From Arcobacter sp. (GTDB lineage Bacteria > Campylobacterota > Campylobacteria > Campylobacterales > Arcobacteraceae): a DNA stretch of 64,000 nucleotides. The notes below the pieces were generated by a model, which was not told the DNA's origin, did not search any database, and was given only the letters and a program-made list of their open reading frames with translations. Made by a program: the position numbers and the translations under genes. The stretch covers positions 62,001-126,000 of the forward strand of contig PKUK01000009.1 in the NCBI GenBank assembly GCA_002869535.1, read 5' to 3'. Shown piece by piece: positions 6,852 to 14,621 of this stretch (position 1 is the stretch's first letter; each line of letters begins with the position of its first letter).

Positions 6852-7418
6852 TTATTTTTTTAGGGAGTTTAAAAAGAGTTCAAGCTGAGAGATACAAGTT
6901 TGAAAATAGCTTCCATCTTGTGATTTTTTTGCTGTACCTAAACACCCTTCAATAGAGGCTACTATGTACATAGAGAGTGCTTTTGTATCATCGTGTTTGA
7001 TTTCATTTTTCAAAACTGCTTTATCTAAAATCTGTTCAATAATATTTTCAAATCTTGTATAAACTACTTCTAAAGCTTGTTTAAAGTCCTTGTCTATTGG
7101 AGATCACTCTTGCATAAGATTGTTAAGTTTACAGCCACAAGTAAAATCAAAGCTATTTCTATTTTTAATTAGTTTTATTAATTCATCACAAATATTTTTT
7201 TCGTGTTTTAACAAAATACTATATTTATCTACAATATAAGAGTTTACTCTTTCATTAACTACTGCTAGTCCCAACTCTTTTTTTGATTTAAAGAAGTGAT
7301 ACATACTCCCTTTATTCATGTTGGCTTTTTTTAAAATCTTATCAACTGAAGTTGCGCTATAACCATTTTGATAAATCTCTTCAAAGGCTACATCTAAAAG
7401 TTTTTCTCTACTACTCAT
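6852..7418 (-). pseudogene. TetR-family repressor interrupted by in-frame TGA
   Basis: Residues 1-104 form a clear TetR N-terminus: HTH with YSATSVDKILKKANMNKGSMYHFF, then KKELGLAVV. The frame meets TGA at 7104-7106 just after GCKLNNLMQE, and then continues open for 83 more residues (SPIDKDFKQALEVVY...) to TAA at 6852. The downstream part matches the ligand-binding half of this TetR group, including SIEGCLGTAKKSQDG. The joined product of about 188 aa is normal length. A single base change, for example from TTA, would explain the stop. The truncated 104-aa product would keep the DNA-binding domain but lose most of the dimer and effector domain. It begins one base after the stop of the XRE-type regulator gene, so they form one transcript. 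Confidence 0.8.
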
Positions 7419-8397: not shown

Positions 8398-8427
8398 CTC
8401 TCTTCCTATTCATTTTCTAAGTTCAAA

Positions 8428-8571
8428 TTGTACCATTATTATACATAAAAACAAATATTGTACATAAATCTAAATAAAGTCTAAAAATTGTATTTTTCAA
8501 TTCAACTATTATACAATACATAATCAACACTATAATGTATACTATCTTTACTAAAAATTTAAAGGATATAC
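8428..8571 (+). promoter_or_regulatory. prpB promoter region with 30-bp-periodic half-sites
   Basis: TTGTAC at 8428-8433, TTGTAC at 8458-8463 and TTGTAT at 8488-8493 are spaced exactly 30 bp apart. The inverted half-site ATACAA follows at 8511-8516. A TATAAT hexamer at 8531-8536 is a good -10, and the last half-site would overlap its -35. The ribosome binding site AAAGGA (8561-8566) precedes the prpB ATG. The half-sites are the natural candidates for binding by the divergent XRE-type regulator. Confidence 0.55.
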
Positions 8572-9456
8572 ATGAGCGCAGGAAAAAAATTTAGAGAAGC
8601 ACTTAAGGAAGAGACTCCTTTACAAATTGTAGGAACAATTAATGCTTACCAAGCATTACAAGCTACAAAAGTAGGATATAAAGCTATTTACCTTTCAGGT
8701 GGTGGTATTGCAAACGCATCTTATGGTTTACCAGATTTAGGTATGACTATGATTGAAGATGTTTGTATTGATATTAGAAGAGTTACTTCTATTTGTGATA
8801 CTCCATTAATCGTAGATGCTGATACTGGTTGGGGACATGCATTTAACGTAGCTAGAACTGTTAAAGAATTTATCAGATCTGGTGCTGCTGGATTACATAT
8901 TGAAGATCAAGTTGCTGCAAAAAGATGTGGACACAGACCAAACAAAGAGTTAGTTACAACTGAAGAGATGTGTGACAGAATTAGAGCTGCTGTTGATGCT
9001 AAAATGCAATTAGACCCAGACTTCTATATCATTGCAAGAACTGATGCACATGCGTCTGAAGGTCAAGAATCTGCAGTTGCTAGAGCAAAAGCTTATGTTG
9101 AAGCTGGAGCAGATGCAATTTTCGCAGAAGCTGTTCATACATTAAAAGAATACAAAGAGTTTTGTGATCAAATGTCTGTACCTGTATTAGCAAACATTAC
9201 TGAGTTTGGGGCAACTCCAATGTTTACTACTGAAGAACTAGGAAGTGTAGGTATTGAAATGGTACTTTATCCATTATCTGCATTTAGAGCAATGAACAAA
9301 GCTGCTTTACATGTATACCAAGAATTAAGAGATAAAGGTACTCAAGAAAGTACACTAGATACTATGCAAACAAGAATGGAACTTTACGATATGTTAGGTT
9401 ACCACGATTATGAGCAAAAAATGGATGCATTATTTTCAAAAGGTAAAGCTAAATAA
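8572..9456 (+). CDS. prpB: 2-methylisocitrate lyase
   Basis: Cleaves 2-methylisocitrate to pyruvate and succinate, the last step of the methylcitrate cycle (cytosol). The 294-aa length matches the family. The isocitrate-lyase-superfamily signature KRCGH is at residues 117-121 and the metal-binding aspartates are in VDADTGWGH (81-89). The start is fixed by AAAGGA five bases upstream. It is the first gene of prpB-prpC-acnD-prpF and ends inside a perfect hairpin. Confidence 0.96.
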
Positions 9457-9507: not shown

Positions 9508-10656
9508 ATGAGCACTACAACTACAGGATTTAAACCAAAAAAATCAGTTGCATTATCGGGGCAATCTGCAGGAAATACAGCTATTTGTACAGTTGGGAAA
9601 AGTGGAAATGACTTACACTATAGAGGATATGATATTTTAGAATTCGCTAACACAGCAGAGTTTGAAGAGATTGCACATTTAATCGTTCATGAAAAATTAC
9701 CAAATAAAGCTGAGCTTGCAGCTTATAAAACTAAATTACAAGGTTTAAGAGATATTCCAGCTGGAGTAAAAATTGCATTAGAGCAATTACCAAAAACTGC
9801 TCATCCAATGGGTGTTATGAGAACAGGTTGTTCAGTTCTTGGAGCAATTATGTCTGAAGATGAATCTCATCCAAAAGATGAAGCTCAAGCAATTGTAGAT
9901 AAATTAATGGCTTGTTTTGGTTCTATGTTATGTTACTGGTACCACTATGCATACAATGGAAAAAGAATTGATGTTGTAACTGATGATGATACAGTTGGTG
10001 GTCACTTCTTACACCTATTACATGGTGAAAAACCAAGAGAATCTTGGGTTAGAGCTATGCATACATCATTAATCCTTTATGCTGAGCATGAATTTAATGC
10101 ATCTACATTTACTTCAAGAGTTATCTCTGGAACAAACTCTGACATGTTCTCTTGTATCACTGGTGCAATTGGAGCATTAAGAGGTCCAAAACATGGTGGA
10201 GCTAATGAAGTTGCATTTTATATCCAAGAAAGATACTCTTCACCTGATGAAGCCCAAAAAGATATCTTAGAAAGAATGGCTAGAAAAGAGATTATTATCG
10301 GATTTGGACACCCAGTTTACTCTTCTTGTGACCCAAGAAACGTAGTAATCAAAAAAGTTGCTGAAGATTTATCTAAAGAAAACAACAATACATTAATGTA
10401 TGACGTTGCTGAAAGAATTGAAACAATCATGTGGGATAACAAAAAAATGTTCCCTAACTTAGACTGGTTCTCTGCAGTTTCTTACAACCAAATGGGAATT
10501 CCAACAGATATGTTTACTCCAATCTTTATCATCTCAAGAGTTACTGGATGGGGTGCACATGCAATTGAGCAAAGAGAAGATGGAAAAATCATTAGACCTT
10601 CTGCTACATATACTGGACCTGAAGACTTAAAATACGTTCCTATAGAAGAAAGATAA
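9508..10656 (+). CDS. prpC: 2-methylcitrate synthase
   Basis: Condenses propionyl-CoA with oxaloacetate to 2-methylcitrate. It belongs to the citrate-synthase fold, 382 aa, the short type-II-like length typical of PrpC. Active-site histidines lie in [11 protein letters not shown] (about residue 230) and [13 protein letters not shown] (about 267). [11 protein letters not shown] and the C-terminal [17 protein letters not shown] are family features. Methylcitrate rather than citrate specificity is called from its place between prpB and acnD. AAAGGAGACA gives a strong ribosome binding site. Confidence 0.95.
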
Positions 10657-10724: not shown

Positions 10725-10749
10725 AAATACAAACTAAATGGATATAAAA

Positions 10750-13344
10750 ATGACAAATGATAAATATCTTAAAAAACTAGAAGGTTTCGATACTAGCTAC
10801 TATGATGTAAAAGCAGCAGTTGAAGATATCACTCCTGGTTCTTTTGAAAAACTTAACTATACATCAAGAGTATTAGCAGAAAACTTAATTAGAAAATGTC
10901 CAAGTGAAGATTTAAAAGACTCTTTAATTCAATTAATTGAAAAAAGAACTGACAAAGATTTCCCTTGGTATCCTTCAAGAGTTATCTGTCACGATATTCT
11001 TGGTCTTACAGCTTTTGTTGACCTTGCAGGTTTAAGAGAAGCAGTTGCTTCTAAAGGTGGAAACCCTGATAAAGTTAACCCTGTTGTTCCTACACAACTT
11101 ATTGTTGACCACTCATTAGCAGTAGAGTGTGGTGGATTTGATCCAGATGCATTCCAAAAAAATAGAGATATCGAAGATAGAAGAAATGCAGATAGATTCC
11201 ACTTTATCAACTGGACAAAAGAAGCATTTAATAACGTTGATGTTATTCCTCCAGGTAATGGAATTATGCACCAAATCAACCTTGAAAAAATGTCTCCTGT
11301 TGTTCACAATATTGATGGAATTGCATCTCCTGATACATTAGTTGGTACAGATTCACATACTCCTCATGTTGATGCACTTGGTGTTATCGCTGTTGGTGTT
11401 GGTGGATTAGAAGCTGAAAATGTTATGCTTGGAAACCCTTCTTATATGAGAGTTCCTGAAATCATTGGTGTTGAAATTACTGGGGTAAGATCAGAAGGTA
11501 TTACTGCTACTGATATTGCACTTGCTATGACATCATTTTTAAGAGAAAACAATGTTATCTCTGCATACTTAGAGTTCTTTGGTGCTGGTACAAAATACCT
11601 TAACTTAGGAGATAGAGCAACTATTGCAAATATGACTCCTGAATATGGTGCAAGTGCTGGTATGTTTGCTATTGATTCTCAAACAATTGATTACTTAACA
11701 GTAACAGGTAGAGATGCACAGCAAGTTAAATTAGTAGAAGCTTATGCAAAAGCAAATGGATTATGGGCTGACCAATTTGACAATGCTACATATGCAAGAA
11801 CTATTGAATTTGATTTATCAAAAGTTACAAGATCTTTAGCAGGTCCATCTAAACCTCATAAATTAGTGCCAACTTCAACGTTAAAAGCTGAAGGTATAGT
11901 AAAAGAATGGACACAAGAAGGTGATTTCATCCCTGATGGTGGCATCTTAATTGCAGCAATTACTTCTTGTACTAATACTTCAAATCCAAGAAACGTTATC
12001 GCAGCTGGATTACTAGCTAAAAAAGCAAATGAACTAGGACTTTCAAGAAAACCTTGGGTTAAATCTTCATTAGCACCAGGATCTAAAGTAATCGAAGTTT
12101 ATTTAAAAGAAGCTGGATTATTACCTGAAATGGAAAAATTAGGATTTGGTGTTGTTGGATTTGCATGTACTACTTGTAATGGTATGTCAGGTGCCCTAGA
12201 CCCTAAAATCCAAGAAGAAGTTGTAAATAGAGATGTTTATACAACTGCTGTATTATCTGGAAATAGAAACTTTGATGGAAGAATCCACCCATATGTAAAA
12301 GAAGCATTTTTGGCTTCACCTGCACTTGTTATTGCTTATGCATTAGCTGGTACTATTAGATTTGATATTGAAAATGATGTATTAGGAAAAGATAAAGATG
12401 GTAATGACATTAAATTAAAAGATTTATGGCCATCAGATGAAGAGATTAATGCTGTTGAAAAATCATGTGTTAGACCTGAAATGTACAACAACATTTATGA
12501 GCCAATGTTCAAAAGAGAATTATTAGATAGCGTTAAAATTGACCCATTCTATAAATGGAATACTGCGTCAACATATATCAATAAACCTCCTTATTGGGAA
12601 GATGAATATATGCAAATGCCTGCACTTAAAGGTATGAGACCATTAGTTGTATTCCCTGATAATATAACAACAGACCACTTATCTCCATCAAATGCTATTT
12701 TACCAAGCTCTGCTTCTGGTGAATATTGTTTAAAAATGGGATTACCTGTTGAAGATTTAAACTCTTATGCAACACATAGAGGGGATCATCATACAGCTTC
12801 AAGAGCAACTTTAGCAAATCCAAAACTATTTAACGAAATGGTTAAAGATGAAAATGGGGAAACTAAACAAGGTTCTTTAACTAAGATTATGCCTGAGGGT
12901 ACAGAATCTAGAATGTGGGAAGCTATTGAGACTTATACTCAAAGAAAACAACCACTAATCATCATCGCTGGTACAAATTATGGTCAAGGGTCTTCAAGAG
13001 ACTGGGCTGCAAAAGGTGTTAGATTAGCTGGTGTTGAAGTACTTATTGCTGAATCAATTGAAAGAATTCACAGAACTAACTTAGTTGGAATGGGTGTATT
13101 ACCATTACAATTCAAAGAAGGTGATACTAGAAATACTTATGCTATTGATGGAAGTGAAACTTTTGATATCGAAGGTGAGATTACTCCTAGATGTGACTTA
13201 ACTGTAGTTATGACTAGAGAAAATGGTGAAGTTGTTAAATTCCCTGTTTTATGTAGACTTGATACTTCTGCTGAAGTTGATGTTTATACAAATGGTGGTA
13301 TTTTACAAAAATTCGCTAAAGATGTTATTGCTGAAGGTAAATAA
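10750..13344 (+). CDS. acnD: Fe/S-dependent 2-methylcitrate dehydratase AcnD
   Basis: Aconitase-family enzyme dehydrating 2-methylcitrate to 2-methyl-cis- or trans-aconitate. It works with PrpF and replaces PrpD. The 4Fe-4S ligands are the Cys in ITSCTNTSNPRN (about residue 405) and the pair in CTTCNG (about 473). The swivel-domain motif GSSRDWAAKG lies near 747. I chose the ATG at 10750, giving 864 aa, because it places MTNDKYLKK at the same distance from YTSRVLAEN as in known AcnD. An in-frame ATG at 10738 would add four residues. The ribosome binding site is weak (TGGA), so translation may depend on coupling or on the upstream hairpin. Confidence 0.95.
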   Translation: MTNDKYLKKLEGFDTSYYDVKAAVEDITPGSFEKLNYTSRVLAENLIRKCPSEDLKDSLIQLIEKRTDKDFPWYPSRVICHDILGLTAFVDLAGLREAVASKGGNPDKVNPVVPTQLIVDHSLAVECGGFDPDAFQKNRDIEDRRNADRFHFINWTKEAFNNVDVIPPGNGIMHQINLEKMSPVVHNIDGIASPDTLVGTDSHTPHVDALGVIAVGVGGLEAENVMLGNPSYMRVPEIIGVEITGVRSEGITATDIALAMTSFLRENNVISAYLEFFGAGTKYLNLGDRATIANMTPEYGASAGMFAIDSQTIDYLTVTGRDAQQVKLVEAYAKANGLWADQFDNATYARTIEFDLSKVTRSLAGPSKPHKLVPTSTLKAEGIVKEWTQEGDFIPDGGILIAAITSCTNTSNPRNVIAAGLLAKKANELGLSRKPWVKSSLAPGSKVIEVYLKEAGLLPEMEKLGFGVVGFACTTCNGMSGALDPKIQEEVVNRDVYTTAVLSGNRNFDGRIHPYVKEAFLASPALVIAYALAGTIRFDIENDVLGKDKDGNDIKLKDLWPSDEEINAVEKSCVRPEMYNNIYEPMFKRELLDSVKIDPFYKWNTASTYINKPPYWEDEYMQMPALKGMRPLVVFPDNITTDHLSPSNAILPSSASGEYCLKMGLPVEDLNSYATHRGDHHTASRATLANPKLFNEMVKDENGETKQGSLTKIMPEGTESRMWEAIETYTQRKQPLIIIAGTNYGQGSSRDWAAKGVRLAGVEVLIAESIERIHRTNLVGMGVLPLQFKEGDTRNTYAIDGSETFDIEGEITPRCDLTVVMTRENGEVVKFPVLCRLDTSAEVDVYTNGGILQKFAKDVIAEGK

Positions 13345-13445: not shown

Positions 13446-14621
13446 ATGTCTTATAAACCACAATTTAAAGTAAAAGCAACATATATGAGAGGTGGAACTT
13501 CTAAAGGAACATTTTTTAATATAGCAGATTTACCAAAAGAGGCTCAAGAAGATTCAAGAAAAAGAGATAAATTACTTCAAAGAATTGTTGGAAGTCCTGA
13601 TATTTATAAACAACAAATGGATGGTATGGGAGGAGCGACTTCTTCTACTTCAAAAGCTATTTTAGTAGGTAAATCAGATGTTCCTGGGCATGATGTAGAC
13701 TACTATTTCTGTCAAGTTGCTATTGATAAAGATTTTGTGGATATGAGTGGAAACTGTGGAAATTTATCTAGTGCAGTTGGTCCTTTTGCTATTAAAGAAG
13801 GTTTAGTTGATAATGTGCCTGAAAATGGTGTTTGTTGTGTAAAAATTTGGCAAGCAAATATCAAAAAAACTATTCTTTGTTATGTAACTATGGAAAATGG
13901 AATAGTTAAAGAAATGGGAGATTATTACATTGATGGTGTTGCATTTCCTGCTGAAGAAATCGTATTAGAGTTTGCAGAACCTGTTGATCCTAGTGAAGAG
14001 TTATTTCCTACTGGAAACTTAGTAGATGATTTAGAGGTTCCAGGAATTGGTACATTTAAAGCTACTATGATAACTGCTGGTATTCCTACATGTTTTGTAA
14101 ATGCTTGCGATATTGGATACAAAGGAACTGAACTTCAAGCTGATATTAACTCTGATGCTGATGCACTAGCAAGATTTGAAATAATTAGATCTTATGCTGC
14201 ATTAAAAATGGGTCTAATTTCAGACTTGAAAGAAGCAGAAACAAGACAACATACTCCAAAAATCGCTTTTGTTGCACCACCAAGTGATTTTACTACATCA
14301 AGTGGAAAAGAAGTTAAAGCAGATGAAATTGATTTGCACGTGCGAGCTTTATCTATGCAAAAATTACACCATGCTATGATGGGAACAGCTTCAGTTGCTA
14401 TTGGAGTTGCTGCTTGTATTGAAGGAACATTAGTAAATATTGCTGCTGGTGGGGGAGAAAAAACTGCAGTTGAGTTTGGACATCCATCAGGTACACTTAA
14501 AGTTGGTGCAATTATTCAAAATAATGATGGTCAATATATAGTTGATAAAGCAACAATGAGTAGAAGTGCTAGAATAATCATGGAAGGTTATGTTCATGTT
14601 CCAGAAGGAACTATGGACTAA
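13446..14621 (+). CDS. prpF: 2-methylaconitate isomerase PrpF
   Basis: Isomerises 2-methyl-trans-aconitate to the cis form so that hydration to 2-methylisocitrate can proceed; required with AcnD. The 391-aa protein has the diaminopimelate-epimerase-like fold. The start KATYMRGGTSKGTFF and DMSGNCGNLSSAVGPFA, containing an active-site cysteine region, are diagnostic. AAGGAAACAG supplies the ribosome binding site. It is the last gene of the operon and is followed by an intrinsic terminator. Confidence 0.95.
   Translation: MSYKPQFKVKATYMRGGTSKGTFFNIADLPKEAQEDSRKRDKLLQRIVGSPDIYKQQMDGMGGATSSTSKAILVGKSDVPGHDVDYYFCQVAIDKDFVDMSGNCGNLSSAVGPFAIKEGLVDNVPENGVCCVKIWQANIKKTILCYVTMENGIVKEMGDYYIDGVAFPAEEIVLEFAEPVDPSEELFPTGNLVDDLEVPGIGTFKATMITAGIPTCFVNACDIGYKGTELQADINSDADALARFEIIRSYAALKMGLISDLKEAETRQHTPKIAFVAPPSDFTTSSGKEVKADEIDLHVRALSMQKLHHAMMGTASVAIGVAACIEGTLVNIAAGGGEKTAVEFGHPSGTLKVGAIIQNNDGQYIVDKATMSRSARIIMEGYVHVPEGTMD

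Follow-up and report, generated by a model that had tools for sequence, protein, structure and literature searches.

Described regulators of the methylcitrate cycle include the sigma-54 type PrpR and the GntR-type PrpQ. Enterobacterial PrpR, a sigma-54 activator, is encoded divergently to the prp operon. Operators of the MatR type read TTGTATACAA. The DNA-binding domain of TrmB is a winged helix. The HTH of the ScfR family is of the XRE type. Lambda CI binds inverted repeats as dimers and activates from a site at about -42; its action at PRM is class II activation. ScfR family members (MccR, also known as PrpR in M. tuberculosis, and RamB) are HTH proteins that regulate the methylcitrate cycle and acetate metabolism and are encoded beside their targets; their binding motif consists of two near-identical boxes, and RamB may both activate and repress (PMC6765138, PMC10370305). 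A C-X2-C-X4-C motif is described for the family (PMC6765138). Its members are further characterised by a [4Fe4S] cluster and by binding of CoA or acyl-CoA.

The locus considered here lies in a stretch of 64,000 nucleotides from Arcobacter sp. (the window). It includes a prpB-prpC-acnD-prpF operon without a hydratase gene of its own and a gene coding for a 325-aa regulator (Table 1), which, like enterobacterial PrpR, is divergent to the prp operon. In its presumed function the protein resembles the ScfR regulators MccR/PrpR and RamB, whose targets are propionate and acetate genes and whose motif is a pair of boxes. The sites described below resemble MatR-type operators as words, the CI-type HTH fold is shared with lambda CI and the restriction-control C proteins, and the joining of an HTH to a probably PLD-like domain recalls TrmB and TrmBL2. 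We regard the protein as an XRE-type regulator of metabolism that has an unusual putative sensor domain and whose regulon is newly predicted here. No description of a regulator of this operon in this group was found in the literature covered (mostly open access; titles and the beginnings of abstracts).

The prp operon and the divergent regulator gene

In the AcnD/PrpF route 2-methyl-cis-aconitate, the product of PrpF, is hydrated by AcnB, which in S. enterica is thought to be the main aconitase for this reaction (PMC5690661). The A. butzleri genome paper describes the AcnD/PrpF pathway and places AcnB in the TCA cycle. In C. jejuni, which belongs to the same phylum, sigma-70 promoters lack a -35 sequence (PMC3847290). 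Directly downstream of the regulator gene there is a 104-aa TetR-type ORF (7104-7418, minus strand), which looks truncated and matches AcuR-like TetR proteins in the N-terminal part only.

Table 1. Features of the regulator-prp locus (window coordinates)
Feature	Coordinates	Strand	Remarks
Regulator gene, 325 aa	7420..8397	-	XRE/Cro/CI-type HTH (residues about 2-81) and C-terminal domain, probably PLD-like without HxK
Site 1, ATTGTACCATT	8427..8437	+	TTGTAC in 34/35 aligned gaps; block identity 0.92 (33 gaps)
Operator A, a degenerate TTGTAC-N7-GTACAA (19-bp inverted repeat)	8428..8446		10/12 positions
Possible regulator-gene -10 (TATAAT on minus), within operator A	8438..8443	-	inferred; not strictly conserved
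Site 2 block, CATAAAAACAAATATTGTACAT, with inverted ACAA-N3-TTGT; rest of module I	8444..8465	+	TTGTAC exact in 28/35
Linker	8466..8481		random sequence, near-constant length; sites 2 to 3 are 30 bp apart in 31/35
Site 3, TAAAAATTGTATTTT	8482..8496	+	TTG invariant in 35/35
Module II (TTG...CA...ATACA)	8488..8516		spacings of 13 bp (G to C), 11 bp (C to C) and 24 bp (C to -10)
Site 4, ATACAA (TTGTAT on minus), at the would-be -35 position	8511..8516	-	C8514 invariant in 35/35
prpB -10, TATACT	8538..8543	+	TATAAT in 27/35 gaps, TATACT in 8/35
AAAGGAT, likely prpB ribosome-binding site	8561..8567	+	conserved block
prpB, methylisocitrate lyase	8572..9456	+	NCBIfam NF008455 and TIGR02317 above cut-off
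prpC, 2-methylcitrate synthase	9508..10656	+	NF009006 above cut-off
acnD, Fe/S-dependent 2-methylcitrate dehydratase	10738..13344	+	TIGR02333 above cut-off
prpF, 2-methylaconitate isomerase	13446..14621	+	TIGR02334 above cut-off

With E values up to 0.1 admitted, neither Pfam nor NCBIfam has a match to the regulator, and searches with it against the sequences of solved structures returned nothing credible. By sequence, the XRE-type HTH is seen in some members only, as sub-threshold Pfam matches. An AlphaFold2 model based on an alignment of 28 proteins (pLDDT 74, pTM 0.60) was the basis for a structural comparison. Residues 2-81 of the model match 3op9 (Z 8.0, rmsd 2.9 over 67 residues); the other leading matches are mostly of CI/Cro type, and the structures matched by this domain include 434 Cro, P22 C2 and C proteins. 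In the model, the N-terminal domain is a CI/XRE-type HTH fold.

Residues 82-325 modelled alone gave pLDDT 78.5 and pTM 0.79. The leading structural matches of this C-terminal model belong almost without exception to the PLD superfamily, with TrmBL2 (5bqt_A, Z 6.1, rmsd 3.9 over 123 residues, indicating a common arrangement only) at the head, followed by NucT (Z 5.5) and, at lower ranks, PLD3, PLD4, Zucchini and Nuc. The best Foldseek E was 0.1 for the C-terminal domain and 0.006 for the full model (NucT), and the domain has no Pfam match. Given Z values under 8 and weak Foldseek E values, a PLD-like fold is likely at most. The catalytic HxK(x4)D motif is absent: there are just two histidines (251 and 263), neither in an H-x-K context, nor is there an H-x-K among the invariant or near-invariant columns of the homologue alignment. 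Lack of the motif suggests a non-catalytic, ligand-binding role for the domain. Lambda CI and the C proteins are not known to have a comparable metabolite-sensing domain.

These properties set the protein apart from the regulators mentioned above. Unlike ScfR members, it has neither a DUF955/IrrE-like nor a DUF2083 domain (both absent when 28 members were compared with Pfam, E values up to 1 included), its C-terminal model resembles the PLD superfamily, and it lacks the C-X2-C-X4-C motif, with only three cysteines (56, 70 and 169) among 325 residues; without these domains and the cysteine motif, it is not placed in the ScfR family. Unlike TrmB, for which the regulator has no Pfam match, it has a CI-type N-terminal HTH instead of a winged helix. 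Unlike PrpQ and MatR, GntR-type regulators of propionate or malonate genes, it has an HTH of CI/XRE fold and no Pfam or NCBIfam match to the GntR HTH domain. It was proposed earlier that the regulator is not of the PrpR sigma-54 type, and this holds: no Pfam or NCBIfam match to the AAA+ sigma-54 interaction domain was found in the regulator, the prpB strand has no -24/-12 pattern (TGG-N8-10-TGC(A/T)) in any of 36 gaps, and the prpB -10 is sigma-70-like.

Repeats in the regulatory gap and their conservation

The regulator gene and prpB are separated by a gap of 174 bp (8398-8571). The original prediction described three TTGTAY half-sites at an exact 30-bp period in this gap, together with an inverted ATACAA over the -35. 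All of these words can be read from the sequence: TTGTAC at 8428-8433 and 8458-8463, TTGTAT at 8488-8493 and ATACAA, the C of which is 24 bp ahead of the T of TATACT, where a -35 box would be expected. In 20,000 dinucleotide-shuffled versions of the gap, three TTGTAY never stood at 30+30 bp or at another equal spacing between 7 and 59 bp, and 16 of the 20,000 had at least three TTGTAY of whatever spacing. Since TTGTAY is frequent in the window (178 observed vs 112 expected; the genome is AT-rich), the bare word is weak as evidence and conservation is decisive.

A scan of bacterial and archaeal species yielded 37 loci with a relative of the regulator in the window's family (f1), which we treat as Arcobacteraceae. 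The loci come from Arcobacter, Aliarcobacter, Poseidonibacter, Malaciobacter, Halarcobacter and some genomes named at a higher rank only; one (L030) is titled Sulfurospirillum. prpB divergently adjoins the regulator in 35 of the 37, the other two (L006 and L036) ending too near the regulator gene. The aligned set comprises 36 gaps including that of the window, or 35 without the divergent L037; block identities were calculated for 33 (also without L007 and L038).

G8430, C8452, G8460, C8463, G8490 and C8514 are invariant in all 35 aligned gaps, the window included. Mean pairwise identity in the 33 gaps is 0.92 for site 1, 0.86 for the site 2 block, 0.79 for site 3, 0.78 for site 4 and 0.81 for the -10, compared to 0.40-0.56 for linkers and leaders (0.40 in the linker following site 2). 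Distances between the cores are nearly constant: 30 bp between sites 1 and 2 (G to G) in 33/35 gaps and 31 bp in 2/35; 30 bp between sites 2 and 3 in 31/35, 29 bp in 3/35 and 31 bp in 1/35; 24 bp between sites 3 and 4 (G to C) in 24/35 and 23 bp in 11/35; and 24 bp between site 4 and the -10 in 30/35 and 23 bp in 5/35. Only 6 of the 35 gaps, that of the window among these, have an exact TTGTAY at each of the three sites; the commonest form of site 3 is TTGTAA (16/35) and that of site 4 is ATACAT (19/35). What stays constant is the distance between cores rather than a set of three equal half-sites, and the proposed 30-bp period is only half of the picture.

Judging from the aligned sequences, the sites form two modules: module I (8427-8465) beside the regulator gene and module II (8488-8516) located 23-24 bp before the prpB -10. 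The operon-side sites and the -10 are a fixed distance apart in the window's family. The basic operator would be the inverted repeat TTGTAC-N7-GTACAA (19 bp), present as such or in degenerate, overlapping versions. Operator A of the window reads TTGTACCATTATTATACAT; as its 10/12 matching positions were equalled by 22 of 1000 shuffles, this operator, taken alone, is weak as a site.

In other families of the order, the regulator is divergent to a prpE-like gene, which is followed by prpB and then by prpC where the stretch reached that far. The prpE-like protein passes only the broader acetate-CoA ligase cut-off and is below its equivalog cut-off. The gap ends of several distant loci were set by eye, and individual start codons could be misplaced by a few codons; three distant regulators (L043, L044 and L053) are blank in the protein alignment. 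The 19-bp inverted repeat is complete (12/12 positions) in 5 of 27 gaps (L039, L040, L049, L050 and L052) and reaches 11/12 in six more. The complete repeat is on the regulator side in L039, L049 and L050, comes after some 240 extra bases in L040 and sits behind the -10 of the prpE-like gene in L052. Eight loci with the most distant regulators (38-44% identity) have no TGTAC/GTACA words. Some of these retain a repeat that has drifted, for example TTGTTCAAAAAATATACAA in L062 (3 of 300 shuffles were as good), and in others (L060, L065 and L066) shuffle comparison found no repeat better than chance.

The distance that corresponds to sites 2 to 3 is 11 bp in L043 and L045, from two other families, and the linker between the modules varies elsewhere outside the family as well (both by eye). 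The 30-bp period is therefore a family trait of module spacing, and the alignment among relatives, proposed as a check, shows the spacing to be kept inside the family and lost outside it. Fixed-length PSSMs of modules I and II were also scanned in other families; most scores stayed inside the range set by random 250-bp stretches of the window, and a few exceeded its maximum. As the modules have changed spacing, such a scan is weak, and the other families were compared by word counts and by the 19-bp repeat.

All this bears on the model of the original prediction, a single cooperative array of equal half-sites with a three-turn period of 30 bp on one face of the helix. The model accounts for the three TTG at 30+30 bp which persist in most family gaps despite a random linker sequence. 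It does not account for the different conserved surroundings of the three sites, with site 3 being mostly TTGTAA, for the other conserved distances of 11, 13 and 14 bp, or for the change in inter-module distance outside the family; moreover, 30 bp make 2.86 turns at 10.5 bp per turn. We consider such an array improbable. The presence of several sites per promoter is consistent with binding of more than one dimer.

Co-occurrence of regulator and sites and the predicted regulon

Among 398 Campylobacterales genomes, the regulator is present in 71 and prpB in 80, with both found in 70, prpB alone in 10 and a homologue alone in one (G053, 27% identity). In a phylum-wide sample, 60 of 298 genomes have the regulator at E up to 1e-10, all 60 belonging to the same order. 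Within the window's family most genomes have a homologue of 79-94% identity, with G186 and G418 lower at 58-59%; in other families identity is 38-59%, G053 excepted.

TGTAC/GTACA words, counted in the gap before the first prp gene, are strongly over-represented next to the regulator: 107 vs 16.8 expected in 36 gaps of the window's family and 106 vs 12.6 in 27 distant regulator-bearing gaps, compared to 4 vs 2.5 in nine regulator-less prp upstream regions. The 27 distant gaps are 26 from other families plus L042, which is the same locus as L037 and so occurs in both groups; L057 (no upstream sequence) and L067 (the 27% homologue) were left out of 29 distant loci, and L068 (contig edge) out of ten controls. 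The comparison ties the sites to the divergent regulator, as originally proposed, though in the form of two different modules rather than one uniform three-turn array.

The genome to which the window belongs has three exact WTGTAC-N7-GTACAW palindromes. One precedes frdC, one separates acnB from an acyl-CoA ligase operon, and the third has ileS on one side and an mqo-like gene on the other. In 101 genomes of the family there are 161 such palindromes in the 77 genomes with the regulator and 12 in the 24 without it (4 of these 24 were assigned by elimination), and the reversed pattern has 14 sites in all 101 genomes. The difference between genomes with and without the regulator has a Mann-Whitney p of 5e-8 when genomes are treated as independent, regardless of descent or size. 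Looser searches were abandoned. The 15-bp core ACAAATATTGTACAT with up to two mismatches had 48 own-genome hits vs 20 with the control in reversed order, which is too unspecific to predict a regulon, and palindromes with up to one mismatch (48 vs 28 in the control) are largely chance, so the exact ones were used. A hit at 986-1004 of the window, inside a helicase-like ORF (named by eye), was discarded.

We assigned 42 distinct palindrome loci, a subset of the 161 sites without the three of the own genome (29 laid out plus 20 picked blind to genes, minus 7 duplicates). The palindrome is in the gap before acnB in 20, before pta in 11, before ackA in one and in the gap between the mqo-like gene and ileS in four; the rest are in other gaps (3) or inside ORFs (3). 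Many of the acnB-side palindromes are shared with a divergent gene and closer to it. Profile checks cover pta of L129 and ackA of L136; the remaining pta loci owe their name to the N-terminal sequence. The mqo-like gene passes the Pfam Mqo cut-off and fails the NCBIfam cut-offs for Mqo and L-2-hydroxyglutarate oxidase; the acyl-CoA ligase and the OadA-like protein mentioned below are under their equivalog cut-offs.

Alignment of acnB promoters revealed a second, stricter element near the -10, typically CTTGTACAATTCTTTACAAAAATTGTACA. Its distances are 13 bp (G to C), 11 bp (C to C) and 23 bp (C to -10), compared to 13, 11 and 24 bp in module II of prpB. The module II geometry occurs in 26 of 36 prp gaps (shuffles 1/1800) and, among acnB loci, in 23 of the 27 regulator-bearing and none of the 19 regulator-less (shuffles 2/2350); the strict pattern thus misses 10/36 prp gaps and 4/27 regulator-bearing acnB loci. 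The 27 loci comprise 20 reached via an exact palindrome, one of the own genome and six from genomes without an exact palindrome, and the geometry is present in 19 of 21 preselected or own loci and 4 of 6 not preselected for a palindrome. The 19 regulator-less loci remain from 22 (L184-L205) after removal of L204, which has a short upstream sequence, and of L199 and L202, which lack the start. As the regulator-less genomes of the family belong mostly to other genera, the acnB contrast is confounded with descent. One locus (L177, genome G431) has module II at acnB though no regulator was found; this assembly is 85% complete, so the regulator gene may be missing from it.

Word counts before acnB in the window's family are 37 TGTAC/GTACA vs 2.4 expected in six regulator-bearing promoters and 9 vs 9.6 in 20 regulator-less ones, with six of these nine in G431. 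Other families show no excess of these words before acnB, either with the regulator (2 vs 4.7 in 18 promoters) or without it (1 vs 2.2 in 8). Local control of prp would thus be widespread and acnB control a family extension.

Two other ideas about the sites have to be weighed here. One is that the conserved blocks are promoter DNA only, a periodic signal which replaces the -35 box in this phylum, as C. jejuni promoters carry periodic signals at -7, -17, -27 and -38 (PMC3847290). Since the gap is AT-rich and yet contains invariant G and C, the blocks reach about 110 bp before the -10, and the module is missing from the 19 regulator-less acnB promoters, this is hardly credible. The other is that a more general regulator binds at prp, acnB and pta. 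The targets do belong to central metabolism, and CemR is described as affecting energy conversion in Arcobacter butzleri and C. jejuni; acnB, methylcitrate and prp are absent as words from the main text of that paper, which neither supports nor excludes the idea directly (PMC11334517). The presence of sites tracks the 325-aa regulator, and so we judge CemR unlikely as the binder and a general regulator of any kind very unlikely.

Several other elements were observed near these genes. A second conserved element, probably the site of another regulator, is located about 80-120 bp before acnB; it reads TGTAACTTTTATTTACA in the window's family (e.g., L130, L131 and L153), and its forms in three other families (L206, L208 and L221) are ATGTTACTATTCTTAACAT, ATGTTACTCTTCGTAACAA and ATGTTACTTTATGTTACAT. 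Upstream of pta (L129, L137, L145, L150 and others) there is a conserved direct repeat GCTAT-N6-GCTA with an 11-bp step shortly before TATAAT, different from the TGTAC sites. Two ackA-like copies, one of them checked by profile, lie side by side in L136 (G446) and flank pta in L145 (G444), with a palindromic operator between the genes. In the regulator-less G406 (L203/L204), acnB is broken by several in-frame stops, possibly due to a frameshift or assembly error. The own genome has an exact operator-like site before frdC-frdA (C4:26545, L105) and one with a single mismatch before an oadG-oadA-like pair (C9:408224, L107); these frdC and oadG sites are single-genome observations outside the 42 loci. 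A palindrome with one mismatch precedes an RraA-like gene (L106).

Proposed mode of control and biological meaning

Overall, the repeats are probably operators of the divergent regulator, which would repress its own gene and serve as a class-II-type activator for the methylcitrate cycle and its helper enzymes. This reading draws on comparison, namely conservation, architecture, co-occurrence and shared geometry, from which binding, sign of control and ligand are inferred. Module I lies where the regulator's own promoter must be, some 30 bp ahead of the start codon, and autorepression is therefore its most likely role. A dimer on module II, in place of the -35, would most likely contact RNA polymerase and activate prpB, much as lambda CI does at PRM.

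Alternatively, the regulator could repress both prpB and acnB, with module II excluding RNA polymerase until an inducer such as 2-methylcitrate or propionyl-CoA releases it. Module II does overlap the -35 position and module I covers the regulator's promoter region. Further, in six loci of another family (L052-L056 and L058; f20, genus g33), an operator-like repeat is located directly behind the -10 of the prpE-like gene, a position that fits repression better, so that the sign may differ there. However, a near-identical site 23-24 bp upstream of two unrelated -10s is more typical of activators, and no conserved block covers the prpB transcription start. We regard general repression as unlikely, though deserving more weight than the other alternatives. 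The near-equal placement at prpB and acnB favours activation from about -41, and provided that the regulator binds these sites, activation seems to be the somewhat better supported sign.

In the window's family, the acnB module at a near-equal distance would mean co-control of aconitase with the prp operon. Since the acnB product supplies the hydratase step missing from the operon, shared control of prp and acnB would give a complete pathway. The further palindromic operators before pta and the mqo-like gene would mark targets of the same regulator, while the C-terminal PLD-like domain, devoid of catalytic residues, may sense a pathway metabolite.

More tentatively, we speculate that the protein represents an unnamed Campylobacterales family combining a CI-type HTH with a dead PLD-like sensor, which started as a local prp switch and later, in the window's family, became a regulator of the entire propionyl-/acetyl-CoA node (prp, acnB, pta and the mqo-like gene, here perhaps also frd, oad and the acyl-CoA ligase operon), its former phosphodiester site possibly now reading an acyl phosphate or CoA ester. 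If our interpretation is right, an unannotated protein gains a predictable operator, a predicted regulon and a ligand class, and the coordination of a hydratase-less prp operon with acnB would be explained, the propionate pathway being run as a unit.
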